DNA of 37,549 nucleotides from assembly GCA_029251785.1 (NCBI GenBank), contig JAQXCQ010000184.1, forward strand, positions 1-37,549. The letters are read 5' to 3'. Positions 20,585 to 37,549 of this stretch are shown one piece after another; within the stretch, counting starts at the first letter, position 1; every line of letters starts with the position of its first letter. Below the pieces are notes generated by a model. The model saw only the letters and a program-made list of their open reading frames with translations, was not told the DNA's origin and made no database searches. Origin of the DNA: Maricaulis sp. Its GTDB lineage: Bacteria > Pseudomonadota > Alphaproteobacteria > Caulobacterales > Maricaulaceae. A program made the translations under genes and the position numbers.

Positions 20585-23479
20585 TCAATTTCCGTCGCGA
20601 TGAACTGCATCCGGTTGCAAATAACGCGTGAACAGGGCGCGCACACGCTTGCTCCGACCTTGCAATTCCTCCTGCAAAGCGCGCAGGCTGTTCACCTTGC
20701 CGAGCCCCGCCAACAATTGGGCGAAGCCTGAGCTGGCACCATCTGGATCAAAACCGGTGCCGTGAGCCGACCGGATCAATTGCGAAATACCCAGATAGAT
20801 ATGCGCCGTTTCAGTCAGGAAACGTGCATCTTCAATCGACATAATTCCCGTCCTGACGAGCGCCGAAAATGCCGAAGCGGTGCCGCCACGCACGACATCC
20901 TTGTCCGCATGTACCACCTGCAGGCTTTGAGCGATGAATTCGATATCCTGAAGGCCGCCGATACGGGCCTTGAGGTCCCAGACGCCGGATGCGGGCTTGT
21001 CGCGTTCCAGGCGCGCGCGCATATCGCGTGCATCGTCCAGCAAATCGCCAGGTGAGCGTGGCTTCTCAAGCGCGCGATCGATCGCAATCGCAACCGTTTC
21101 CGCTAACCCTGCATTGCCGCTCACCGTGCGCGCGCGCGTCAATGCCATCAATTCCCAGGTCCACGCTTCCTCGTAATAATAGCTGGAAAAGCGGCTCAAC
21201 CGAACAGCAACTGGCCCTGCCCGTCCCGAAGGCCGCAATTGCATGTCCACCTCGTAGAGCTCCCCCTCCTCGGTTGGCACGGACAGCGCGCTGATGAAGC
21301 GTTGGGCAAACCGGGTAAACCATTGTTGGGAATTTTCTTCGCCGTCATAAACAATCACCAGATCGATATCAGAATCCGCCGACAACTCGCCGCCACCCAG
21401 CTTGCCCATGCCCAAAATCACGTAATGGCCGGGCATATCGCCATAGCGCCGGCAGGTTTCGGCCTGCGCTGCTTGTGCCATACATTCCACAGCCGCATCG
21501 GCTATTGCTGTATAGGCAGCACCCGCCGTTTGCGCATCGGCGGCACCGCGCAAAACCTGCGCGCCCACGCGGTAACGCTCCTCACGAACTGCACGGCGGG
21601 CAATATTGAGCATGTCCTCATAACCATCAGCCGCCGCCACGAGCCGCTTCAGACGGCTCAGGAACGCGTCTGGGGCGTCATCGGCCAACGGCGTGGAGAA
21701 ACGCGCATCCAGCATCACATCCAGCATGGCTGGCCGGCGCGCCAATGTCTGCGCCATGCGCGGAGCCATGGTTAAAATGCCGACCAAATCGGCAGCCAGG
21801 CCCGGCTCATTCATCATCAAGGACAGGGGTTGCACACCAAATGGCAAATTTTCGAAGAACACCACAAATCGCAAGAAGGCGGCGTCCGGCTCGCCGGTTT
21901 GCGACATCGCGTCGAGCAGGCGCGGAGCCAGCTTGGCCAACAATGTGCGCGCGCGTGGGCTTCTGACCGCACGAACGCGGCCCGCCGTCCAGTCACTCAG
22001 CGTCTTCCAGACGAGGGCGGCGTCATCAAAACCCAGCGTTTCCAATGTCAAAATTGTGTCTGGCGTCGGCTCAACGCCGGTCAATACCAGAGAACCCGCC
22101 TGCGAGGACATACTGTCTTCGGCATCATGAAACTGGTCGGAGAAATGACCATGCACCCGTCGCAGAACGCCCTCAACCTCCTCATCGAACCGGGCCAAAT
22201 CACCAAATCCAGACAAGGACGCAATCGCGGCTCTCTGCGCTTCATCATCCGGCAGGGTCTGACTCGCCTCATCCTGCAACATCTGCACGCGATGCTCCCA
22301 GGACCGTAGCTTTGAATAATCGGCACTGAGCGCCTTTAACGCGTCATTACTGACCGCTTCACGCCCGCTCAGCGCCCGGAGGGAGTCCAAGGTTGCCTGC
22401 GTCCGCACATTTGGATCACGCCCGCCAAACACCAATTGCGGCACTTGGGCAAAAAATTCGATCTCTCGGATACCGCCCCGCCCAAGTTTTAGATCATGGC
22501 CAGCGGGGGAAATGCGGGCTCGTCGTCCGACCGTCTGGATTTGACGCGCCAGATTGCGAATATCGTCAACGGCCGCAAAGTCTAAGGAACGACGCCAGAT
22601 GAAGGGCTGCATCCAAGTTTGAAATTGCTCGGCCGCCTTCTGGTCACCCGCACATGGCCGGGCCTTGATCCAAGCCGCCCGCTCCCAGGTCTGTCCAAGA
22701 GATTCATAGTAATGAAGGGCGGCATCCGTGGACATCGCAACCGGCGACGCGCCAGGATCAGGCCGCAACCGCAAATCTGTCCGGAAGACATATCCCTCCG
22801 ATGTCTGTTCCTGCAGTGAGCGCATGACAGCTTGAACCAGGCGCGGCAAATGTTTGCGCATCTCCTGCCCGTCCGGAAGCTGGACAGCGTCCGCATCAAA
22901 AAAGCAGATCAAGTCGATGTCTGAGGAATAATTGAGCTCGCACGCGCCCATCTTGCCCAGGGCCAGAATGAAAAGGCCCGGCAACGGATTATTGGCGTCC
23001 TGCACAGGAAGCGCCAGCCCACGTTGACTCAAAAAGCGGACATGAGCCAAAAGCGCCGCGGCAACGGCGGCGTCAGCAAATTGAGTTACGGCCTGAACCG
23101 CCTGCGTCACCGACCAACGACGACACAAATCGGCGAGTGCCACCAGCAAATGCATATCGGCCTTGGCCTGCCGAAGGGCCGTCTCCAGAGCGGGTATGTC
23201 CGCACTCCGCTCGCCGGCCTGACTTACCGCAGCGAGGCAGTTCCGGAGCATGACTTCAGGAGGCTGATTCATGCCGTCGCGCAAAATATCAGGACGTCGG
23301 CGGGCCAATCGTGTCAGATAGGGAGACGCATCAAAAACGCTTCGCAGAAAGTCCCCAGCCACCGCGTCGATATCAGCGTCCAGATCCGGATATTGCGCGC
23401 ACCCGCCCGTCGACCATTGCGGGTCAATCTTCGGCAAGGCGGTCAATTTGGCATGCAGGAGTGGTCGGGCGTCAGTCAT
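20585..23479 (-). CDS. glnE: Glutamine-synthetase adenylyltransferase/deadenylylase
   Basis: A 964-aa bifunctional enzyme that adds AMP to glutamine synthetase and removes it, setting nitrogen assimilation under PII control. Two nucleotidyltransferase domains are seen: the N-terminal one with GKMGACELNYSSDIDL near residue 175 (deadenylylase) and the C-terminal one with GMGKLGGGELSADSDIDL near 690 (adenylyltransferase), separated by helical regulatory segments and each followed by a HD-like helical part. Length matches the family. It lies 39 bases after the sensor kinase gene. Confidence 0.93.
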   Translation of the reverse strand: MTDARPLLHAKLTALPKIDPQWSTGGCAQYPDLDADIDAVAGDFLRSVFDASPYLTRLARRRPDILRDGMNQPPEVMLRNCLAAVSQAGERSADIPALETALRQAKADMHLLVALADLCRRWSVTQAVQAVTQFADAAVAAALLAHVRFLSQRGLALPVQDANNPLPGLFILALGKMGACELNYSSDIDLICFFDADAVQLPDGQEMRKHLPRLVQAVMRSLQEQTSEGYVFRTDLRLRPDPGASPVAMSTDAALHYYESLGQTWERAAWIKARPCAGDQKAAEQFQTWMQPFIWRRSLDFAAVDDIRNLARQIQTVGRRARISPAGHDLKLGRGGIREIEFFAQVPQLVFGGRDPNVRTQATLDSLRALSGREAVSNDALKALSADYSKLRSWEHRVQMLQDEASQTLPDDEAQRAAIASLSGFGDLARFDEEVEGVLRRVHGHFSDQFHDAEDSMSSQAGSLVLTGVEPTPDTILTLETLGFDDAALVWKTLSDWTAGRVRAVRSPRARTLLAKLAPRLLDAMSQTGEPDAAFLRFVVFFENLPFGVQPLSLMMNEPGLAADLVGILTMAPRMAQTLARRPAMLDVMLDARFSTPLADDAPDAFLSRLKRLVAAADGYEDMLNIARRAVREERYRVGAQVLRGAADAQTAGAAYTAIADAAVECMAQAAQAETCRRYGDMPGHYVILGMGKLGGGELSADSDIDLVIVYDGEENSQQWFTRFAQRFISALSVPTEEGELYEVDMQLRPSGRAGPVAVRLSRFSSYYYEEAWTWELMALTRARTVSGNAGLAETVAIAIDRALEKPRSPGDLLDDARDMRARLERDKPASGVWDLKARIGGLQDIEFIAQSLQVVHADKDVVRGGTASAFSALVRTGIMSIEDARFLTETAHIYLGISQLIRSAHGTGFDPDGASSGFAQLLAGLGKVNSLRALQEELQGRSKRVRALFTRYLQPDAVHRDGN

Positions 23480-23518
23480 CTCGTCAACTTGCGATGATTT
23501 GCCCGACAGTGGAAAGCC

Positions 23519-24955
23519 TCAGTCATTGTCCGCGTCTGGTGCCGCCGGCAAACACAGCGAAGCGCGCAGGCCGGGCCCACCTTCTTCCGGGATACCCGAA
23601 CCATCGGCCAGGTCGATTTGACCGTTATGAACATCGACAATCGCCTTCACAAGCGACAGGCCGAGTCCGGTGCCTGGTAAGCTGCGCGAACTGTCGAGGC
23701 GAACAAATCTCTGCAAGGCGCGCTCGCGATCATCGGGCGGAATACCGGGGCCGTTATCCGTCACCGAATACTCAATCCAGCCAGTCGAATTTTGACGTAA
23801 CCGCAAGCAAATTTTTCCACCTGCCGGCGTGTATTTCACCGAGTTTTCCAACAAGTTCGACAGGGCTTGAGAGATCAGACCCCGGTCAGCATAAATCTGC
23901 ATTCCGCCCTGAATTTCCGAGCTGAATTCCAGATTTTCATCCTCGCAAACTGGCTCATACAATTCGGCAAGATCGACCGCGATTAATGCAGGATCCATGC
24001 GAACAATCGACGCCCGGCTTTCGCCGGATTCCAGCCGTGACAGGCTCAGGATCGAATTGAAAACACTCAGCAATTCGTCTGTATCGGAGACAGCTTGTTC
24101 CAGCGCAGCTTCGCGGGATTCCAGGCTCCCCTCATCAAGCAAAGCCTGATCGAGGCGGTTTCGCATTCGTGTCAGAGGCGTGCGCAGATCATGGGCGATA
24201 CTATCGCCCGCATGTCGCATCCGGTGCATCAACGCCTCAACACGGTCCAGCATACCATTAAAATTTTCCGCCAGCTCATCCAGCTCATCACCGGTGAAAT
24301 TGCGCGGCGCGCGCTGCTTCAGGTCGCCCGCCTTTACACTGCGGGCCACCACATTGATGTCATCCAGCCGACGAGCGAAGCGGCGACTGACGAAAATGCC
24401 ACCCGCGACACCCAGCGCCAGCGCCAGCGCCGAGGCCGCCAGGATTGTCGTCGTCATGCGTTCAAGGAGATTGATCTCCTCATCCACATCCAGACCAATC
24501 AATAGGCGATATCCGCCCGGCAAAAGCAGGATGCGTGCACGTGCTTCGCTTTGCCCCTTATCACTCACAGCTACGCCGGTAACAGCCTGTCTATTATAAG
24601 AAAATTGCACCCGGCCGTCACTGTCCGGCACGACATCGCGCGGCCAGCTCAGATTGGATGACCCTGAATCCCGGCCACTTCGATCGACCATCACATACAG
24701 ATAATCGCCCGCCCCGCCTGCGATACGCTCCAGCATATAGGTGTGGATCGAGCTGATGCCGCCCGCATCAAATTGTTCCATCACCGTATTCAATTCTTCA
24801 GTGATGACCGTGTCAGCCCGGCGCAGCATCATCCCCGCCGACGCCGCATAGACGAAGCCGAGGATGACGAAACTTGAAAAGGCAAACAGCCCAGCCGACA
24901 GAAGTGTCTGTCGGAAGGCTGTTGTCCTCAGAAAGGCGGGGGGGCGGTATTTCAC
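23519..24955 (-). CDS. Sensor histidine kinase of the htrA-linked two-component system
   Basis: A 478-aa inner-membrane kinase. Two membrane helices (about 17-40 and 168-190) flank a periplasmic domain of ~125 residues; a HAMP domain follows (RRFARRLDDINVVARSVKAGDL), then HisKA with AGDSIAHDLRTPLTRM (phospho-His255), and HATPase_c with LSNLLENSVKYTPAGG, VTDNGPGIPPDD and LPGTGLGLSLVKAI. It pairs with the OmpR-type regulator immediately upstream, seven bases away. The lipid- or envelope-sensing role is inferred from the linked periplasmic protease. Confidence 0.9.
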   Translation of the reverse strand: MKYRPPAFLRTTAFRQTLLSAGLFAFSSFVILGFVYAASAGMMLRRADTVITEELNTVMEQFDAGGISSIHTYMLERIAGGAGDYLYVMVDRSGRDSGSSNLSWPRDVVPDSDGRVQFSYNRQAVTGVAVSDKGQSEARARILLLPGGYRLLIGLDVDEEINLLERMTTTILAASALALALGVAGGIFVSRRFARRLDDINVVARSVKAGDLKQRAPRNFTGDELDELAENFNGMLDRVEALMHRMRHAGDSIAHDLRTPLTRMRNRLDQALLDEGSLESREAALEQAVSDTDELLSVFNSILSLSRLESGESRASIVRMDPALIAVDLAELYEPVCEDENLEFSSEIQGGMQIYADRGLISQALSNLLENSVKYTPAGGKICLRLRQNSTGWIEYSVTDNGPGIPPDDRERALQRFVRLDSSRSLPGTGLGLSLVKAIVDVHNGQIDLADGSGIPEEGGPGLRASLCLPAAPDADND

Positions 24956-24962
24956 GGCTTAA

Positions 24963-25634
24963 TCAAGCCTGCAGGCGATAACCGGCTCCACGGACCGTGT
25001 GCAGCAGCGCGCGGTCGAATGGTCGGTCGATTTTTGAGCGCAGACGAGAAATATGCACGTCGATGACATTTGTCTGGGGGTCAAAGTGATAATCCCACAC
25101 TTTTTCCAGCAACATCGTCCGGGTGACCACCTGGCCGCTATGTTTCATTAAAAACTCAAGCAGGCGAAACTCGCGGGGTTGCAGTAAGATTTCTTCTGCT
25201 TCCCGGATCACCGTCCGGGCGAGAAGATCCATTTCCAGATCTCCAACCACCAGCTTTGTGCGAACCGCTTCGGGATCCCGGCGGCGGGCCAGAGCCTCGA
25301 CGCGGGCCAGAAGTTCGGCAAAGGCATACGGCTTGACCAGATAGTCATCGCCGCCAGCTTTGAGGCCTTCAACCCGATTATCCACCTCACCCAGAGCTGA
25401 GAGGATAAGAACCGGCGTCCGATCCTCATCGCCGCGCAGGGCTTCGATCATGCTCAGACCATCCATGCGAGGCATCATCCGGTCTACGACAAGCACGTCG
25501 TATTCCGCTGCCCGGGCCATTTCCAGACCCTCCTCACCGTCACCGGCGTGGTCAGCAACGTGACCAGACTCGCGTAGCCCCTTGCGGATATAACTCGCCG
25601 CTTCACGATCGTCTTCAACTATTAGAATGCGCAT
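24963..25634 (-). CDS. OmpR/PhoB-family response regulator (CpxR-like context)
   Basis: A 223-aa transcription factor. Receiver domain with EDDREAAS, phosphoacceptor Asp51 in VVDRMMPRMDG, switch residues in LILSALGE and LVKPYAF; winged-helix domain with LLQPREFRLLEFLMKH and DVHISRLRSKID. GGAGG is eight bases before the ATG at 25634, better than the GTG two codons upstream. It sits between htrA and its kinase, and the tandem repeats before htrA fit the dimeric binding of this family. Confidence 0.9.
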   Translation of the reverse strand: MRILIVEDDREAASYIRKGLRESGHVADHAGDGEEGLEMARAAEYDVLVVDRMMPRMDGLSMIEALRGDEDRTPVLILSALGEVDNRVEGLKAGGDDYLVKPYAFAELLARVEALARRRDPEAVRTKLVVGDLEMDLLARTVIREAEEILLQPREFRLLEFLMKHSGQVVTRTMLLEKVWDYHFDPQTNVIDVHISRLRSKIDRPFDRALLHTVRGAGYRLQA

Positions 25635-25649
25635 CTGCACAGCCTCCGT

Positions 25650-27167
25650 TTAGTCTTCGTCTTCCACGGAGAGCGCCACATAGCGCTGGCCCCGGGCTGT
25701 TTCCACGAGCAGCAGGATTGCGGCTCGGTCTGCACTTCGGGCCGCTTCGATTGCGCCCTCGAGATCTTCCAGTCCAACCAGCGAGCGATCGCCGGCATCC
25801 AGGATGACATCACCGACGCGCATCCCCTTGCGGGACGCCTCGCTGGTGCCAGAGATACTTCTCACGACCAGACCCGTTTCGGACTCGTCGAGATTGCGCA
25901 GATTGCGGGTTTCGTCGTCGAGCGGCGCCAATTCCATGCCAAACAGCATGCTTGGCGCGACGGTCTCTTCATCGGTGTTTTGTAAGTTTGCCAGATCATT
26001 GTCGGTCGGCCGTTCCGCCAGGCGAATGCGAACGGTCTGTTCGCGGCCGTCCCGCCAAATACGGAAAGACACGCGATCTCCCACCGGAATATCTGCGACC
26101 TTGCGTGTCAGATCGCGTGCGTCCTCAACGGCGTCATCATTCACCGACAGGATGACATCCCGACGCTCCAGACCGCCAGCAGCGGCCGGCCCGGTTGCAA
26201 CAAGCGAACTGACCATGACGCCACGCGGCTCGTCCAGACCCAGGCTCGCACCGACATCCTCAGTCACCGTAACGATACTCACGCCCAACCAACCGCGAAT
26301 GACACGGCCGTTTTCGCGCAATTGGCTGACAATACGCGCCGTCAGATCAGACGGGATCGCAAAACCAATACCCACATTGCCGCCGGTCGGCGAAATCAGG
26401 CGTGAATTGACGCCCACCACATTGCCGTTGAGGTCAAAAGTGGGCCCGCCGGAATTACCGCTATTAATCGGCGCATCAATTTGCATGAAATCGGTATAAT
26501 TGGATCGACCCATTTCACGGCCTGTGGCGGAAATTATGCCGGCAGTTGCCGTGCCACCGAGGCCAAATGGATTACCCACTGCAACCACCCAGTCACCAAC
26601 CCGATAATCGGGGTCTTGATCAAGGGCAACAAACGGGAAATCAGGCTCATCATCAATCTTCAGCAATGCCAGATCGGTCTGAGGATCCACACCGATTACG
26701 CGAGCCGGATAGGTCTCCCCATCCACGGTGCCAACATTGATTTCCGTAGCACCATCAATCACATGATTGTTGGTAACAACAAAACCGTCTGCCGAGATGA
26801 AAAACCCGGAACCCAGTGAGGCGCGCGGCGCGGGAGACGGCGCCCCTTGGCCACCCTGCTCTTCCAGCCAACGCCGATAAGCCTCTTCCAGCTCAGGCGG
26901 TATGGGTTGTCCATTCGGGCCGACGAGTGCGCCATCATCCTCAATCACAGTCTGGATTGTCACCACAGCGGGACTGACGCGTTCGATCAAATCGGCGAAG
27001 GACATCGGCGCGCCATCGGGCACAGCGGCCGCAAAATGCGGCTGGCGATCATCCTGCATCGCCTCGGCAGCAGAGCTTGTGTATTCCAACACAGCGCCTG
27101 CACCAATTACTGAAAGAACCAAGAGAGAAACTCCGCCAAGGCGGCGTATTTGATCAACCGAAATCAT
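25650..27167 (-). CDS. DegP/HtrA-family periplasmic serine protease
   Basis: A 505-aa protein of the DegP/DegQ class that degrades or refolds damaged periplasmic proteins. An N-terminal hydrophobic segment (LLVLSVIGAGAVLEY) directs export or anchors it. The catalytic triad is His135 in TNNHVIDGA, Asp165 in DPQTDLALLKI and Ser239 in INSGNSGGP. Two PDZ domains follow at about 285-385 and 405-500. An extended segment rich in Pro/Gln between the signal and the His loop matches the LA loop of the family. It is the first gene of a regulator-kinase operon, an arrangement typical of envelope-stress control. Confidence 0.92.
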   Translation of the reverse strand: MISVDQIRRLGGVSLLVLSVIGAGAVLEYTSSAAEAMQDDRQPHFAAAVPDGAPMSFADLIERVSPAVVTIQTVIEDDGALVGPNGQPIPPELEEAYRRWLEEQGGQGAPSPAPRASLGSGFFISADGFVVTNNHVIDGATEINVGTVDGETYPARVIGVDPQTDLALLKIDDEPDFPFVALDQDPDYRVGDWVVAVGNPFGLGGTATAGIISATGREMGRSNYTDFMQIDAPINSGNSGGPTFDLNGNVVGVNSRLISPTGGNVGIGFAIPSDLTARIVSQLRENGRVIRGWLGVSIVTVTEDVGASLGLDEPRGVMVSSLVATGPAAAGGLERRDVILSVNDDAVEDARDLTRKVADIPVGDRVSFRIWRDGREQTVRIRLAERPTDNDLANLQNTDEETVAPSMLFGMELAPLDDETRNLRNLDESETGLVVRSISGTSEASRKGMRVGDVILDAGDRSLVGLEDLEGAIEAARSADRAAILLLVETARGQRYVALSVEDED

Positions 27168-31197: not shown

Positions 31198-31213
31198 GTT
31201 AACGGCGCTTTAG
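31198..31213 (-). promoter_or_regulatory. Near-consensus CtrA box upstream of the 454-aa gene
   Basis: On the minus strand CTAA-N7-TTAAC differs by one base from the full CtrA consensus TTAA-N7-TTAAC, 48-63 bases before the ATG of the 454-aa gene. It overlaps the stop codon of the upstream kinase gene, so part of it is also constrained by coding. A cell-cycle link is inference. Confidence 0.3.
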
Positions 31214-32589
31214 CGTGACACGGCCGGGAGCGTCAGCGTGACAAGTAAACCCGCCATATCCGAACGCGAGAGTTCAATATTGCCCTCATAGGCCTTGGCC
31301 AGGTCTGCAACGATCGCCAGACCCAATCCGGTTCCTGGGGCTTGTTCGTCGAGGCGCACGCCGCGCCCAAGGGCTTTTGTACACCCGTCCTCATCCAGTC
31401 CGGGGCCATCATCCTCAATCAGGATCGTGAGGCTCTTCTCCGCTGAGGCCCGCGCCGTCACACGCACCTCACCGCCCGACCACTTGCAGGCATTATCCAT
31501 CAAATTGCCAATCATCTCCTCGAGATCCTGCCGCTCGCCACGAAAGAAAAGCCCGGCCTCGGTCTCGGTTTCGATATGGATGCCGCGGCGTTGATTTATG
31601 CGCGTCAATGTTCGCGCCAGGTCTCCCACGAGCGGCGCCACCTCTGTTCTCGCGCCAACCGCTTTAGCGTGGGCCGCTGCACGTGCACGGCGCAAATGGT
31701 GGTCGACTTGCTTCGCCATGATATCAGACTGTCGGCTAACCAGTGTGGCGAGCGTGGAATCGTTCTCGCGGGCCTCATTACTCAAAACAGCCAACGGTGT
31801 TTTCAGAGCATGCGCCAAATTTCCCACATGGGTTCGCGATCGCTCCACAAGCTCCCGGGAATGATTCAGCATGGCATTAAGCTCATCGGCCAGGGGCTGC
31901 AATTCGGTAGGAAACTCCCCCTCGACATGCTCCACACGCCCCTCGCGTATATCCACCACCCCGTCACGCATCCGCAGCACAGGCGCCAGTCCAACCCGGA
32001 CCTGGAAATATACACCCGCCGCAATCACAGCGGCGAATAAGAGGAACATCGATCCGGAAGTAATGCCAAAATTCAACACATCCGCATCGGCTGGCCGGCG
32101 ATCTTCCCCCGCCACCGCGATGATGAGATGCTCCCGGCCCGGTAGCAACACGCCCTGCACGACAAACCGCAAAGGCTCACTCTCGGGCCCCTTGCCCGAG
32201 ACGATCTGGATCGTTGCCGGATCGGCAATCACCGCATCGATAACGGATTGAGGCAGATAAAGCGTCTCATCCCAGAGAGATCGTGACACCAGCAACACGT
32301 CGTCATCACCGGTGTCATCGATATCCAGAATTTGCCAATAACGCCCTGAAAAAACCCGCCCAAAGGCAGGATCAGAGGGTCGCCGAGCCAGCTCAATCTG
32401 TCCTGATTCATCTGTGTCCGCGGCAGCCAGAAGCGCACTGACCGTACCGGTCAGACGGTCATCCAGCGTTCCCAACACAGACTGGCGATACAAGGTGGTC
32501 AGTGCCAACGCACCAACCAGCAATAGCAGGACGGCCACAGTGGCCGCACCGGCAAACAGACGAAAGGCGAGGGAGCCGCGACCGATCAC
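31210..32589 (-). CDS. PhoQ-like sensor histidine kinase
   Basis: A 459-aa inner-membrane kinase. Two membrane helices (about 11-33 and 176-196) enclose a periplasmic domain of ~140 residues with an acidic patch DIDDTGDDDVLL (residues 89-100), reminiscent of the Mg2+-binding surface of PhoQ. A HAMP-like linker follows, then HisKA with VGNLAHALKTPLAVLSN (phospho-His260; the HALKTPL form is PhoQ-like) and HATPase_c with MIGNLMDNACKWSGG, IEDDGPGLDEDG and APGTGLGLAIV. It overlaps the regulator gene by four bases. Confidence 0.87.
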   Translation of the reverse strand: MIGRGSLAFRLFAGAATVAVLLLLVGALALTTLYRQSVLGTLDDRLTGTVSALLAAADTDESGQIELARRPSDPAFGRVFSGRYWQILDIDDTGDDDVLLVSRSLWDETLYLPQSVIDAVIADPATIQIVSGKGPESEPLRFVVQGVLLPGREHLIIAVAGEDRRPADADVLNFGITSGSMFLLFAAVIAAGVYFQVRVGLAPVLRMRDGVVDIREGRVEHVEGEFPTELQPLADELNAMLNHSRELVERSRTHVGNLAHALKTPLAVLSNEARENDSTLATLVSRQSDIMAKQVDHHLRRARAAAHAKAVGARTEVAPLVGDLARTLTRINQRRGIHIETETEAGLFFRGERQDLEEMIGNLMDNACKWSGGEVRVTARASAEKSLTILIEDDGPGLDEDGCTKALGRGVRLDEQAPGTGLGLAIVADLAKAYEGNIELSRSDMAGLLVTLTLPAVSR

Positions 32590-33263
32590 GAAACCGCGCG
32601 CGCCACCGGATCAATCAGACGATATCCAAGACCACGCACCGTCTCGATCCGTTCGCCGCCAATTTTTTTGCGCAAGCGCCCGACAAACACTTCGATCGTA
32701 TTGCTGTCGCGATCAAAATCCTGATCGTAAATGTGTTCAACCAATTCGGTCCGCGAGATGACCCGGTCTTGATGATGCGCAAGATAGCTCAGCATACGAA
32801 ATTCGTGGGACGTGACCTTCACCGGCGCCCCATCGATGAACACCCGCGCACCGCGCGTATCAATGTGCAACGTGCCACACTCAATGGTCGCGGAGGCATG
32901 CCCCGCCGCGCGACGTGTCAGTGCGCGCAGTCGGGCCAGCAATTCCTCGGTATGAAATGGCTTGGTCAGATAATCGTCTGCGCCGGCATCAAAGCCCGCA
33001 ACTTTTTCGCTCCAGCGATCACGCGCTGTCAGGATCAACACCGGATGGTCACGACCATCGGCGCGCCAGCGTTCAAGCACAGACACCCCATCCAGCTTGG
33101 GCAGGCCCAAGTCCAGGACCACCACATCATAGGCTTCTGTATCACCCAGAAAATGTCCGTCCTCGCCATCCAGGGCAGTATCAACGGCATAGCCGGTATC
33201 TTCCATCGCACGGCAAAGCTGGCGATTGAGGTCCGGGTCATCTTCTACGATCAAAGCGCGCAT
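32586..33263 (-). CDS. PhoP-like OmpR-family response regulator
   Basis: A 225-aa regulator. Receiver pocket EDDPDLNR, phosphoacceptor Asp51 in VVLDLGLPKLDG, LILTARDRWSEKV and LTKPFHTEELLARL; winged-helix domain with VTSHEFRMLSYLAHHQDRV and EVFVGRLRKKIGGERIETVRGLGYRL. It would be phosphorylated by the adjacent PhoQ-like kinase, and its end overlaps the kinase start as ATGA. It starts eight bases after the stop of the PepSY-like gene. Confidence 0.9.
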   Translation of the reverse strand: MRALIVEDDPDLNRQLCRAMEDTGYAVDTALDGEDGHFLGDTEAYDVVVLDLGLPKLDGVSVLERWRADGRDHPVLILTARDRWSEKVAGFDAGADDYLTKPFHTEELLARLRALTRRAAGHASATIECGTLHIDTRGARVFIDGAPVKVTSHEFRMLSYLAHHQDRVISRTELVEHIYDQDFDRDSNTIEVFVGRLRKKIGGERIETVRGLGYRLIDPVARAVS

Positions 33264-33271
33264 GTTATTCC

Positions 33272-33649
33272 CTATCGTTCACAAAGGATTTCAGCTGTCT
33301 GGGCATTGAGGACCACATTGATCCGGCGCGATCCGGCAACACGGATTTTCACCAGATAACGCGGACCCGAGCCGGCGATACCGGGACACTGCAATTGCAT
33401 CCCGTCCATCACCAACGCCACATCATCCAGGCTCATGTCCGGATAATTACGACGCACGGCTGCGATCATGCGACGTGATGGCAAAACCGCCCCGCCTCTT
33501 GATTGCTCCCGTGCCTGATCCGCAGTCAAACGACCACGAAGGTCCTGACTAAACGAGGCCATTGCCCAGTTCAGTGCGTCGGCTTGTACCGGAGCCGGCG
33601 TCGCCAGCGTGCCCAGAAAAGCGGCAGATATGATCAAAGTTCTCAACAT
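33272..33649 (-). CDS. Small secreted PepSY-like protein
   Basis: A 125-aa exported protein: signal peptide LRTLIISAAFLGTLATPAPVQA, then one PepSY-like unit (RRMIAAVRRNYPDMSLDDVALV ... YLVKIRVAGSRRINVVLNAQTAEI). Cys88 and Cys123 could form a disulfide. PepSY-type proteins next to two-component genes often modulate the sensor from the periplasm; that role here is inference. AAGGTG lies five bases before the ATG at 33649; longer upstream reading adds a proline- and glycine-rich stretch that crosses the direct-repeat operator and is rejected. Confidence 0.75.
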   Translation of the reverse strand: MLRTLIISAAFLGTLATPAPVQADALNWAMASFSQDLRGRLTADQAREQSRGGAVLPSRRMIAAVRRNYPDMSLDDVALVMDGMQLQCPGIAGSGPRYLVKIRVAGSRRINVVLNAQTAEILCER

Positions 33650-33671
33650 GATTTCACCTTGACCCGGCCCC

Positions 33672-33689
33672 CCTGAACCCGGCCTGAAC
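33672..33689. promoter_or_regulatory. PhoP-box-like 11-bp-spaced direct repeat
   Basis: On the minus strand GTTCAGG occurs twice (33689-33683 and 33678-33672), exactly 11 bases start to start; with the preceding bases it reads TGTTCA-N5-GGTTCA, the layout of the enterobacterial PhoP box ([T/G]GTTTA-N5-[T/G]GTTTA) with one substitution per half. It is 22 bases before the ATG of the PepSY-like gene heading the phoP-phoQ-like operon. The short distance makes its position relative to the promoter unclear. Confidence 0.5.
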
Positions 33690-33713
33690 AAATTCCTAAA
33701 AAATCACAACGGC

Positions 33714-34625
33714 CTAAAATTTCATTCCCTTGCGGGGGTCATCCGCACTCGACGGGTGCCAGGTCGCCAGAAAGTCTCTCAATTCATCGTCCTGCTCCGG
33801 CAAGGCTACAAGCAAACGCACCATCTGGTCACCCCGCTTGCCGTTACTCCCAGCAAAACCCTTGCCACGCAAACGGAGCAAACTGCCAGAGGTCGACCCC
33901 GCGGGGACGCGCACATCCACGGCACCATCTATGGTCGGCACCCGCACCTTTGCCCCCAGCGTCGCCTCTTTCAGACTGACGGGCAGTTCCAGATGCACGG
34001 TTTCATGCTCCCGGCGGAAATATTTATGGGTTGCCACCTTAATCTCAATCAAAGCATCACCGGCTTGCCCGCCCTGCAGCGACGCATCGCCCTGGCGACG
34101 CAGTCTCAGCACCTGGCCATCCATGGCACCGGGCGGCACCGACACATCCATCGAACGGCCACCTGGCAGCGTCACACGGTGTTTGCCGCCCCGCGCCGCA
34201 TCCATGAAGTCCACGCGAACGGCTTGGCGAATATCACTGCCACGTGGCGGTGGCGCACGGCGCTGCTGCTGTTGTTGCTGGGCGCCGAAATCCGTGAATA
34301 GGTCGGAAAAAATATCGCCCATGCCCTCGAAATTGCGGCCACCGCGCGATTGGCGGTGATTAAATGGACCGCCAGCACCCGGGCGCCCGCCCATGCCGCC
34401 CATACCGCCAAAGCCTGCTGCGCCGCCGGCATCGTATTCTGCCCGTTTTTCCTTGTCAGACAGGGTATTGAAGGCCTGTGAGACGCGCTTGAAACGTTCC
34501 TCGGCCGCCTTGTCGCCCGGCTTGGCATCGGGATGCAGCGCCTTGGCAAGCTTGCGATAGGCCTTCCGGATCTCTGCATCAGATGCAGTCTTCGAAACAC
34601 CAAGAATTTTATACGGGTCGTCCAT
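33714..34625 (-). CDS. DnaJ-class co-chaperone, CbpA-like
   Basis: A 303-aa Hsp40 protein. The J-domain is residues 1-~66 with the DnaK-activating HPD at 31-33; a Gly/Phe/Met-rich region (GFGGMGGMGGRPGAGG) follows; a Gln run (GAQQQQQQRR) precedes two C-terminal substrate-binding beta domains (VDFMDAARGGKHRVTL, IKVATHKYFRREHETVHLEL, LRLRGKGFAGSNGKRGDQMV). The zinc-finger of true DnaJ is missing, so CbpA/DjlA-type type II. It lies 71 bases downstream of the GTA gene with nothing recognisable between. Confidence 0.88.
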   Translation of the reverse strand: MDDPYKILGVSKTASDAEIRKAYRKLAKALHPDAKPGDKAAEERFKRVSQAFNTLSDKEKRAEYDAGGAAGFGGMGGMGGRPGAGGPFNHRQSRGGRNFEGMGDIFSDLFTDFGAQQQQQQRRAPPPRGSDIRQAVRVDFMDAARGGKHRVTLPGGRSMDVSVPPGAMDGQVLRLRRQGDASLQGGQAGDALIEIKVATHKYFRREHETVHLELPVSLKEATLGAKVRVPTIDGAVDVRVPAGSTSGSLLRLRGKGFAGSNGKRGDQMVRLLVALPEQDDELRDFLATWHPSSADDPRKGMKF

Positions 34626-34696: not shown

Positions 34697-37549
34697 TCAC
34701 AGATCGAGCTGCACGCAAGCCGCGCGACCCGCCCCGATTTGTTGGGAGAGCTGGGCAATATGCACGGTGATCGAGGCGGGAATTTCGCCATACACAGAGA
34801 GCAATTCGGCATCGCTCAGACTGCATTTGGGCTGGCTGGTAACCGTTTTAAAAGCACTCGCATCATTCACCCACAAATCCACCGAATATCGCTCATCATC
34901 CTCCGCCAGCGGGATCTCACTGGCCGCCCAATCATCTGACCCGATACGTCCACACCGCACCCAGCTAATTTCGACATTGGCGCCGACACGATGCGCGCGC
35001 ACATGAACCGGCGCGTAAGGCCGCCGCCAGACCTGCCTGGAGACCAATGTCGTCACAGCGGCCCCGCTCCCGTGCGGGTCACCACTGGCACTTACAACGC
35101 GGCACTCGAGATCCACACCGTGCTCATGGCTCTGCAGCGCCAGACCGCCCGCCTGCTCACGCCAGCCTGCCTCAAGAAGCACCACACGGGCGCCTGTCTG
35201 TGCAATCCCCGTTGAGGACGTGCCCCTCTGCCCACGCAGCAAATCCCGCAACCGGTATCGCCGAGGTGCGATCAATTCCGCCTGTGCATATTGCAACACT
35301 TCCCACTCACCATCGGCTTGCTCAACCGCCAACGCATTGCCCCCGTTGAGCACATCCAGCGCTGTCACGCTGTCCAGCACGCCCGAATACAATTCAACCT
35401 CCAACACACTCCCCCGGTCCCACCGACCACGCGCTGCCGAAGCCAAATCTGCGGTGAGCCGGCCCATAATCGCGGCCGACCTCACCTGACCCCGCAATTG
35501 CGGCACACCGCCTAGTGTCGACAGAACAACGTCGTGTGGCCCGGCCCACGGTTCGGCGAAGGCAGCAAGCAGCGGACTTTGCGTCTCGCCCACGACCTGT
35601 TCATCAAGCAATGGCAGGTCCAGCACACACAAATCTGGACGTGACGGGATCGGATACCCGTCCGGCCCTACGCCTGTCTCACTTCCGGAAATCACAGATG
35701 TGCGCGGGCTCGGCGCGCAGGCAGAAACCTGCCGCGTCTGCGCACCGTCCATCGAACACACACGCATCGGCCCGTCACCGAGATTAATCCCATCACCCAT
35801 TTCAAGCCGAAGCGCCGAGGGCGGCAATGTGGCGCTGATCCGTCGGCGACGCGCCTCGATTTCGCTCAGTCCGGCCTGGCACATCTGCCGCGCCTGCCCG
35901 GCATCACACAGCAAGGGCAATTGCCAGCTGGAGACACCGGCCTCGCCAAAAGTATCGCGAGCAAACACTTGCCCCGGCCGATACTCCGCACCGTCATCGA
36001 CAAAGCTAAGTCGTAGATCACGCGGCAGATCGACCAGCGCTTCATCCGAGACCTCGATGGACGGGCTGCCCTCGACCTGCACGAGGTCTGCAACGTCAAT
36101 CGATTGAAGCGAAATGCCCGCCGAGCGAAACACCAGCCCCGCCGCCCCAGCCACCATCCCAAATCCCATCACCGTCGATAGCGGCTCCAGCATGGCCCGC
36201 GGCGTCACCGGGCCCGGCGCGCTGTATCCTGCGACCAGATCATCCAGTCCCGACACATCCACTGGCGCAATGCCCGCCTCATCGCACACCTCGGAGACAA
36301 TCGCGCTGACCGGTACCAGCCCCGCCCGGCCGTTCAGCCAATGCCCGGTGCGCCAATTCTCGCCATCCGCCCAGATATCACCGCGCGCCGGAAAGTCCGG
36401 CCACGGCCGAGCGTCATAGGCCCAGACATGGATAAGGTCCCTATCCACCATCGCCGCGCCATAGACTGGCGAGATCGGGTTTTCCGTTGTTGAGGTCTGA
36501 AAATGCGAGATCATCGCTTCCAGATAACGACGCTGAATCAAATCATCCCGCACCCCGTTCGAGCCATGCGGAAGGGCGCTCTCAGCGCTTTTGGGATCGA
36601 CAAATACATTCGGCTGATTGCTGCCCAGATCGACACCTGGACAACCAATTTCCGTCAGCCAGATCGGCTTGCCCATTGGCGTCCAGCTGGTCGAATTTGC
36701 GGCGCGGATGCCTGCCGGACGGTCATGGTGAGGCTGCGACCACCAATTGACCAGATCCTTGTAACGCCACACCCAGGGCTCGCCATGTTGGGCATCGGTG
36801 ATGGCCGTACGCACCTGCGCATCGCGATTTGATTCGGATGCATAATACCAGTCATAGCCCTCTCCGCCCGCCACATTGGACCGCAAATAATCCCGGTCCT
36901 GTACACGCGCATATTCGCTGGAATCCAGATGGCTATCCCCCGCTCGCCAATCCGATAGCGGCACATACCAGTCAATCGCCACGGCATCGATATTGGCATC
37001 GGCCCACAGCGGATCGAGATGAAAATGCTTCGCCCCGCCGCCTGGCTGATGGCCGGAATACTCGCTCCAGTCCGCTGCATAGGAGAGGCGCGTCTGCGCG
37101 CCCAGCAATTGCCGCGCCTGCGCGGCCAGAGTTTTCAAATGGCCGACCGCCGGATAAGCGCCGGCCGCATCGCGCACTATGGTCAGCGACACCATTTCCG
37201 AACCGATCAGAAATCCGTCCACTCCGCCCGCAGCCTGGGCCAGCGCCGCACAATGGAGAATAAAGCGATTGAGGCCCCAATCCGCGCCCGCTGCACAGCT
37301 CACCTGCCCGCCCGAAACCGTAAAATCCGCCGCTTCTGCCGAGCCGAAAAACGCCGCCACCTGCGCCGCGGCATTCGCGGTTTGGTCGACTGTGCCAGCC
37401 TGCCCCGGCCCTGGATCACAGCTAATCCGCCCGCGCCAGGGAAACGCTGCCTGCGCCGCCCCGCCCCACGGGTCTGGCAACACATTATCCTCGGGCACAT
37501 CCATCAAAATGAAGGGGTAGAGCGTCACCGCCAGTCCGCGCGCCTTCAA
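34697..37549 (-). CDS. GTA TIM-barrel/baseplate tail protein, C-terminal part
   Basis: The visible 950 residues are the large tail/baseplate protein of the RcGTA-type gene transfer agent (gp15/Rcc01698 group, annotated as glycoside-hydrolase/phage-tail protein). The TIM-barrel-like domain carries WGLNRFILHCAALAQ, DGFLIGSEMVSLT, DWSEYSGHQPGGGAKHFHLD, DAVAIDWYVPLSDWR, WYYASESNRD and GKPIWLTEIGCPGVDLG; the phage-tail-like second half includes GSPSIEVSDEALVDLPRDL, LEVELYSGVLDSVTALDVL and RYRLRDLLRGQRGTSSTG. The reading frame is open at the right edge, so the N-terminus lies outside; the first codon is an internal leucine, not a start. The rest of the GTA cluster would be to the right. Confidence 0.88.
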   Translation of the reverse strand: MKARGLAVTLYPFILMDVPEDNVLPDPWGGAAQAAFPWRGRISCDPGPGQAGTVDQTANAAAQVAAFFGSAEAADFTVSGGQVSCAAGADWGLNRFILHCAALAQAAGGVDGFLIGSEMVSLTIVRDAAGAYPAVGHLKTLAAQARQLLGAQTRLSYAADWSEYSGHQPGGGAKHFHLDPLWADANIDAVAIDWYVPLSDWRAGDSHLDSSEYARVQDRDYLRSNVAGGEGYDWYYASESNRDAQVRTAITDAQHGEPWVWRYKDLVNWWSQPHHDRPAGIRAANSTSWTPMGKPIWLTEIGCPGVDLGSNQPNVFVDPKSAESALPHGSNGVRDDLIQRRYLEAMISHFQTSTTENPISPVYGAAMVDRDLIHVWAYDARPWPDFPARGDIWADGENWRTGHWLNGRAGLVPVSAIVSEVCDEAGIAPVDVSGLDDLVAGYSAPGPVTPRAMLEPLSTVMGFGMVAGAAGLVFRSAGISLQSIDVADLVQVEGSPSIEVSDEALVDLPRDLRLSFVDDGAEYRPGQVFARDTFGEAGVSSWQLPLLCDAGQARQMCQAGLSEIEARRRRISATLPPSALRLEMGDGINLGDGPMRVCSMDGAQTRQVSACAPSPRTSVISGSETGVGPDGYPIPSRPDLCVLDLPLLDEQVVGETQSPLLAAFAEPWAGPHDVVLSTLGGVPQLRGQVRSAAIMGRLTADLASAARGRWDRGSVLEVELYSGVLDSVTALDVLNGGNALAVEQADGEWEVLQYAQAELIAPRRYRLRDLLRGQRGTSSTGIAQTGARVVLLEAGWREQAGGLALQSHEHGVDLECRVVSASGDPHGSGAAVTTLVSRQVWRRPYAPVHVRAHRVGANVEISWVRCGRIGSDDWAASEIPLAEDDERYSVDLWVNDASAFKTVTSQPKCSLSDAELLSVYGEIPASITVHIAQLSQQIGAGRAACVQLDL

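Follow-up and report, generated by a model that had tools for sequence, protein, structure and literature searches.

FeuPQ, the regulator–kinase pair known from Sinorhizobium meliloti, is also present in Rhizobium and Brucella. In the S. meliloti account, the gene for a small periplasmic protein, FeuN, is predicted to be co-transcribed with those for the OmpR-type regulator and the kinase, at least 14 genes, including feuN, need FeuP to be activated, and a motif (Motif 3, TTCA-N7-TTCA) is found upstream of 12 genes, five of which are known to be FeuP-dependent, as well as upstream of feuN, and has been put forward as the site of FeuP (PMC3616915). FeuN is reported to bind and restrain FeuQ as a periplasmic protein (PMC12486126). 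A second module of this kind, DbfQRS of Vibrio cholerae, has the gene for a PepSY protein immediately upstream of those for its regulator and kinase; the sections of its report available here suggest positive autoregulation, place such modules across phyla, and describe no regulator box (PMC12714742). For Salmonella PhoP, promoters of architecture I are described as keeping 12 nt between the box and the −10 hexamer (11 for yrbL), which is the class II arrangement (PMC3335776).

We compared these systems with an operon in a stretch of Maricaulis sp. DNA of 37,549 nucleotides (contig JAQXCQ010000184.1 of assembly GCA_029251785.1), which we call the window. The kind of operon is already known, as it matches FeuN–FeuP–FeuQ of S. 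meliloti down to the same candidate site upstream of the small gene (PMC3616915). The gene order of FeuNPQ recurs here, all on the minus strand: a small secreted protein of 125 aa in the FeuN-like position (33272..33649), a FeuP-like response regulator of the OmpR/PhoP type with 225 aa (32586..33263), and a PhoQ-like, FeuQ-like sensor histidine kinase of 459 aa (31210..32589), whose gene begins at a GTG and shares 4 bp with the regulator gene. The original prediction had placed a tandem repeat, TGTTCA-N5-GGTTCA with 11-base spacing, in front of this operon, and it is there: a pattern search of the window found GTTCAGGCCGGGTTCAGG at 33672-33689 on the minus strand with 0 mismatches, and the minus strand over 33674-33690 reads TGTTCA-N5-GGTTCA. 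The core of the repeat is the putative response-regulator box TTCA-GGCCGGG-TTCA (33674..33688, minus). The repeat is held in a 64-bp gap with the stop of a dnaJ-like gene (33714) on one side and the ATG of the small gene (33649) on the other. It had also been called PhoP-box-like, which is accurate in that both are direct repeats with an 11-bp period and 12 nt to the −10 (PMC3335776); the half-sites differ, with GTTCA in the window in place of the GTTTA of the PhoP box.

The letters of the repeat could not by themselves settle whether it is functional. The exact 18-mer has a single exact copy in the genome searched. With at most 2 mismatches there were 23 sites in the window's own genome versus 17 for the reversed control, which is little or no enrichment, and near-matches in the window (at most 3 mismatches) numbered 2, with 3.0 expected. 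Searching the genome with this 18-mer (GTTCAGG-N4-GTTCAGG) had been suggested as a check; it proved too strict, and a pattern combining the box with a −10 element was used instead. Because the motif was not clearly above chance in the window or the genome once mismatches were allowed, we put the functional question to relatives, and it is conservation, rather than the window alone, that points to function. Scored with a position weight matrix (PWM) from whose training loci the window was excluded, the window box reached 27.4, which is also the training median (27.4).

Related loci were taken as the best 80 of 323 from a kinase search, or 81 with the window. The regulator adjoins the kinase in 78 of the 81, window included, and in the other three (L040, L047, and L066) the kinase lies at a contig edge. 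Upstream of the operon, on the coding strand, TTCA-N7-TTCA is present in 71 of the 75 related loci that have at least 640 bp upstream (window included; from the best 80 of 323), and no other spacing between 0 and 20 on either strand occurs in more than 6 of the 75. What recurs upstream of the orthologous operons is the core of the repeat, TTCA-N7-TTCA, plus a −10 element; the flanking GG varies among the related loci. We also sampled 289 Alphaproteobacteria genomes, of which 50, the window's own included, contain a close regulator (E up to 1e-85). Among the 49 others the box was found within 640 bp in 34 and within 900 bp in 36, and other spacings from 0 to 15 reached at most 2; this class sample partly overlaps the related loci, with L140, L141, and L152 repeating the promoters of L043, L062, and L083. 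Measured from the small gene, a box within 120 bp upstream was seen at 68 of the 71 related loci, where shuffles average 0.12 with a maximum of 1, and at 35 of the 46 class-sample loci, where they average 0.16 with a maximum of 2; in both counts the choice of start favored ATGs near the box, and the count of ATG distances given below was redone blind to it.

We rescanned the 17 box-negative loci (13 from the class sample and 4 related) with the PWM. A TTCA-N7-TTTA variant was present at the usual place in two of the four related negatives (L072 and L086) and three of the 13 class negatives (L158, L163, and L164), the L086 variant scoring just 6.0 where the background maximum is 7.9. No convincing box was found, with one letter relaxed or with the PWM, in 12 of the 17, namely 10 of the 49 class genomes plus L076 and L088. 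Six loci (L148, L149, L153, L167, L170, and L179), from genomes of 1.2 to 1.8 Mb, have the regulator and a small secreted gene with no recognizable box. An inverted second box, TGAA-N7-TGAA, stands 22 bp upstream of 43 of 103 boxes when at least 6 of its 8 letters are required (the next best offset gives 8), and is not recognizable by eye in the window.

The sequence between the box and the small gene is also regular. An A is present at box end +13 in all 71 box-bearing related loci, window included, and a T at box end +12 in 44 of them; in the class sample the corresponding counts are 32/35 and 28/35. We read these positions as −11A and −12T of a predicted −10 hexamer 12 nt after the box, which is the spacing described for Salmonella PhoP class II promoters (PMC3335776). 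In the window this predicted hexamer is CAAGGT (33656..33661, minus), a weak match to TATAAT. The start of transcription predicted from the −10 is box end +24, in the window the A of the small gene's ATG (33649..33649, minus), which would give a leaderless mRNA. In 64 of the 71 related loci the small-gene ATG follows the box by 23 to 28 nt, a count for which the choice of start looked at the box; when we repeated it, choosing the ATG by signal-peptide likeness alone, the ATG was at 23 to 28 nt in 93 of 121 loci and elsewhere in 9, and the remaining 19 had no box within 150 bp. In the 65 loci with an ATG 20 to 30 nt from the box, Shine–Dalgarno-like 4-mers precede the small gene in 12, versus 49 of 76 for the regulator, and a C occupies position −1 of the small gene in 50. 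Given that the A of the ATG coincides with the predicted start, that the ATG keeps its distance of 23 to 28 nt from the box, and that Shine–Dalgarno-like 4-mers are few, the mRNA of the small protein is probably leaderless. In the window, an AAGG shortly before the ATG could act as a Shine–Dalgarno sequence. The leaderless start is not universal, since in four Methyloceanibacter/Methyloligella loci (L052, L055, L063, and L067) the ATG is 33 to 52 nt from the box, and in Pannonibacter (L081) we found no ATG start at the usual distance.

The small protein had been predicted to be secreted and PepSY-like, and this was borne out at the level of its family. PepSY (PF03413) is matched by 52 of 56 aligned family members, counted at E up to 0.05 instead of the curated cut-off and with the window's own protein unmatched. 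The window protein has a signal-peptide-like start, no Pfam match above threshold, and no NCBIfam match. Its structure model (mean pLDDT 78.0) has CD1622, the C-terminal domain of YpeB, vibriolysin, and YpmB among its first seven Foldseek neighbors (E 0.3–0.9, probability up to 0.99), with nothing at E up to 0.001. From the family matches and the predicted fold we assign the small protein's family to PepSY. This distinguishes it from DbfQ, which is a recognizable Pfam PepSY protein, whereas here only the relatives are; for FeuN, a PepSY identity is not stated in the available parts of its published accounts. In 117 of 124 loci a signal-peptide-like small ORF precedes the regulator, again with a choice of start that favored ATGs near the box. 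The window protein also has an insertion containing Cys88, which together with Cys123 could form a disulfide, and cysteine pairs are seen in some relatives as well.

The regulator is of the OmpR/PhoP type, as predicted, and its orthologues among the matches listed are 62–92% identical to it. Against curated models it scores best with PmrA, below the cut-off, and not with PhoP, where it reaches 192.6 of the 336 bits of the curated NCBIfam cut-off. The kinase justifies the description PhoQ-like in that the PDB structure closest to its catalytic domain is PhoQ, although at 157.8 of 497 bits it is still below the cut-off of the curated NCBIfam PhoQ model. With both proteins far below the curated cut-offs, we rejected membership in PhoPQ proper. 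The sensor domain of the kinase is predicted (pLDDT 96.3) to have a PAS/PDC-like fold; its top structural matches are PAS/LOV and Cache-type domains, PhoQ sensors ranking 15 at best with a TM of 0.39, and its conserved positions are YW, SRSL, and GP. The original prediction had further proposed that an acidic periplasmic patch senses cations, for which we found no support. The acidic run, DIDDTGDDD, lies in a loop, flanked by the conserved motifs YWQI and SRSLWD, whose length and sequence both vary; this loop has at least four acidic residues in 11 of 77 relatives, most having few, and an acidic run of at least three in 3 of 77, all Maricaulis (L015, L016, and L023). The whole sensor region of the window kinase is nonetheless among the more acidic ones, with a net charge of −12 versus a median of −5. 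The predicted sensor thus differs from PhoQ in being without a conserved acidic patch for divalent cations, and to our knowledge phoPQ has no PepSY gene at its head.

We then looked at whole genomes with a pattern consisting of the box and a −10 carrying a T at −7, the control being the reversed pattern, which corrects for nothing beyond base content. The 16 genomes to which the operon loci had led gave 48 matches versus 3 for the reversed control, 16 class genomes with the regulator gave 66 versus 16, and 16 class genomes lacking a close orthologue gave 31 versus 24. All three sets of 16 were chosen by hand and are unequal in size and composition. For the window's own genome, a slightly looser pattern gave 13 matches versus 2 for the reversed control, and not all 13 are plausible promoters. 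Apart from the operon and the RNA described below, 11 of the 13 remain, several of them intragenic or low-scoring, and we counted none as targets. In one of our side observations, the box precedes a small secreted protein (MKT-I...) in the Maricaulis genome (G000 contig C45, 307-335, minus; L090) and at L207 and L209, with PWM scores of just 13.6 to 16.3.

The genes around the operon provide a further point of comparison. A downstream block (20585..27167), assigned by Pfam and all on the minus strand, consists of degP (25650-27167), a second response regulator (24963-25640), a second kinase (23519-24955), and glnE (20585-23479). In Methyloligella, the FeuNPQ-like operon is followed by genes for CcmH_CycH-TPR, CcmF, and CcmH (Pfam), and after these ccm genes come degP-, regulator-, kinase-, and glnE-like ORFs, identified solely from the sequence and order of the ORFs. 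The window has the degP-to-glnE block as well but no ccm genes between it and the operon. We take the neighborhood of ccm (cycHJKL), degP, and glnE to be that of rhizobial feuNPQ. Gene order, the motif, and this partial synteny are what would make the regulator an orthologue of FeuP. Upstream of the operon, on the minus strand, are a dnaJ/cbpA-like chaperone gene (33714..34625), immediately adjacent, and just beyond it a gene transfer agent (GTA) tail protein gene (GTA_TIM, Rcc01698_C; 34697-37549); in Pannonibacter (L081) and in L138, too, the operon has ORFs upstream that by eye resemble the GTA tail gene.

We consider it very likely that this is a FeuP-type self-regulated operon, with its own regulator acting at the box in class II activation and a leaderless PepSY brake as its first gene. 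We infer that the operon's FeuP-type OmpR-family regulator would bind the repeat as a dimer, head to tail on TTCA-N7-TTCA, occupying roughly −40 to −25 and leaving 12 nt to the −10 hexamer, and would recruit RNA polymerase as a class II activator. Transcription would begin at the A of the ATG, giving a leaderless mRNA with the PepSY-family protein as the operon's first product. By analogy with FeuN and DbfQ, this protein may, once exported, act from the periplasm to restrain the kinase, in which case positive autoregulation would also raise the brake. The autoregulation put forward in the original prediction is therefore very probable, on the conserved box and the class II spacing. With the dnaJ-like gene lying 64 bp upstream in the same orientation, read-through into the operon is possible as well.

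Three other explanations of the repeat have to be weighed against activation by the operon's own regulator. It could be a functionless product of chance or composition in a GC-rich spacer, as the lack of clear enrichment of the 18-mer with mismatches in the window or genome would allow; set against the 68/71 and 35/46 upstream regions with a box, for which shuffles average 0.12 and 0.16, and against the fixed distances to the −10 and to the ATG, this is so improbable as to be negligible. An 11-bp period is common to OmpR-family sites, which would be compatible with a box belonging to another regulator of the family, for example one beside degP, or ChvI, and with the operon as a mere target. 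A second regulator–kinase pair is indeed present about 6 kb downstream in the window. We nevertheless regard this as distinctly unlikely: the box accompanies the operon in most loci tested, the excess of box plus promoter is slight in genomes without a close orthologue (31 versus 24) and clear in those with one (66 versus 16), and FeuP-dependent genes are where the motif was reported in S. meliloti (PMC3616915).

Finally, the box could be an operator at which the regulator represses, so that an active kinase would keep the operon in check (negative autoregulation). The box does overlap the promoter, and FeuN itself is described as a brake (PMC12486126), but the 12-nt spacing to the −10, with the box taking the −35 place, is that described for class II activation by PhoP (PMC3335776), and FeuP is reported to be needed to activate at least 14 genes, feuN included (PMC3616915). 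We therefore think repression unlikely and prefer positive autoregulation by the operon's own regulator.

The same box recurs upstream of a structured RNA outside the window. A strong box was found repeatedly, at C94 18115 in the own genome (PWM 27.0) and at L192, L193, L197, L210, and L212 (25.4–28.9), and after it comes conserved sequence with a terminator hairpin at its end. In the own genome this is an RNA of ~105 nt with a terminator (G000 contig C94 18152-18256, plus strand; L248:1501-1605). The three RNA sequences tried fold much more stably than their shuffles, with z scores of −6.0 to −7.3. We built a covariance model from six sequences, leaving out the box. At E < 1e-6 it found the RNA in 13 of the 26 genomes handled and, in an order sample of 100 genomes, in all 6 of the genus (the own genome and 5/5 others), in 2 of the 14 other family members, and in a single genome outside the family. 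The box starts 36 to 37 nt before the RNA at all 18 distinct loci with E < 1e-6, 12 of which were outside model building, two of these 12 being earlier matches of the box pattern as well. The next matches of the model, at E 1.7e-6 and weaker, are mostly without a box at the usual place; matches weaker than E 1e-6 were treated as noise, with L231 (E 0.004) as an exception. None of the 4227 Rfam families matched at the gathering threshold in the three RNA loci searched, and a relaxed threshold gave two sub-threshold matches on the opposite strand.

Within the RNA, the apical loop of the first hairpin, GUCCCUCGC, is letter-identical in 18/18 strong loci, and this invariance of the loop GTCCCTCGC contrasts with the surrounding stems, which vary. 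The C-rich terminator loop is less constant, reading CCCCCAA in 13 of 18. Of 26 pairs, 22 were changed on both sides among 20 aligned matches, as high as in 0 of 500 shuffles, the alignment being fitted to the model and including one weak antisense row (L225). A first loop that is invariant while the hairpins covary is what would be expected of a pairing seed. We considered whether the RNA does no more than serve the downstream gene as a leader or attenuator, as the conservation of the next gene in most Maricaulis loci might suggest; the neighbors differ, however, in five distant loci (L228, L229, L253, L254, and L255), which leads us to favor, short of proof, a free-standing RNA. The divergent gene upstream of the C94 RNA resembles, by eye, one for a pentapeptide-repeat protein. 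Overall we lean towards a joint reading, in which the box-positioned leaderless promoter of the small gene would be an ancient device of much of the Alphaproteobacteria and, in the Maricaulis lineage, the FeuP-type regulator would also control a trans-acting sRNA of ~105 nt through the same box and spacing. ChvR of Caulobacter crescentus is said to be under the control of ChvI, a regulator different from the FeuP-type one here. That case, as described, likewise links an envelope two-component system to a small RNA (PMC6237742).

The original prediction held that such a circuit would be little described in this lineage. This stands for Maricaulis itself: among the matches listed in the openly licensed literature there was no report of the Maricaulis box, the leaderless start, or the RNA, and among the literature matches listed there was no study of the two-component system in Maricaulis and some relatives. 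It does not stand for the kind of circuit, which the available accounts of FeuNPQ (PMC3616915) and DbfQRS (PMC12714742) already describe. What is new is the fixed promoter geometry across the class and the structured RNA behind the same box. One rhizobium's candidate motif becomes a class-wide promoter grammar of fixed box, −10, and start codon, and FeuP-type regulons can now be sought directly in genomes. Placing the operons' small modulators in the PepSY family ties FeuN-like and DbfQ-like brakes together. The small RNA is a testable further output of the circuit in the marine genus Maricaulis and some relatives, and, if the joint reading is true, this envelope stress circuit would have both a protein arm, the leaderless PepSY brake, and an RNA arm.
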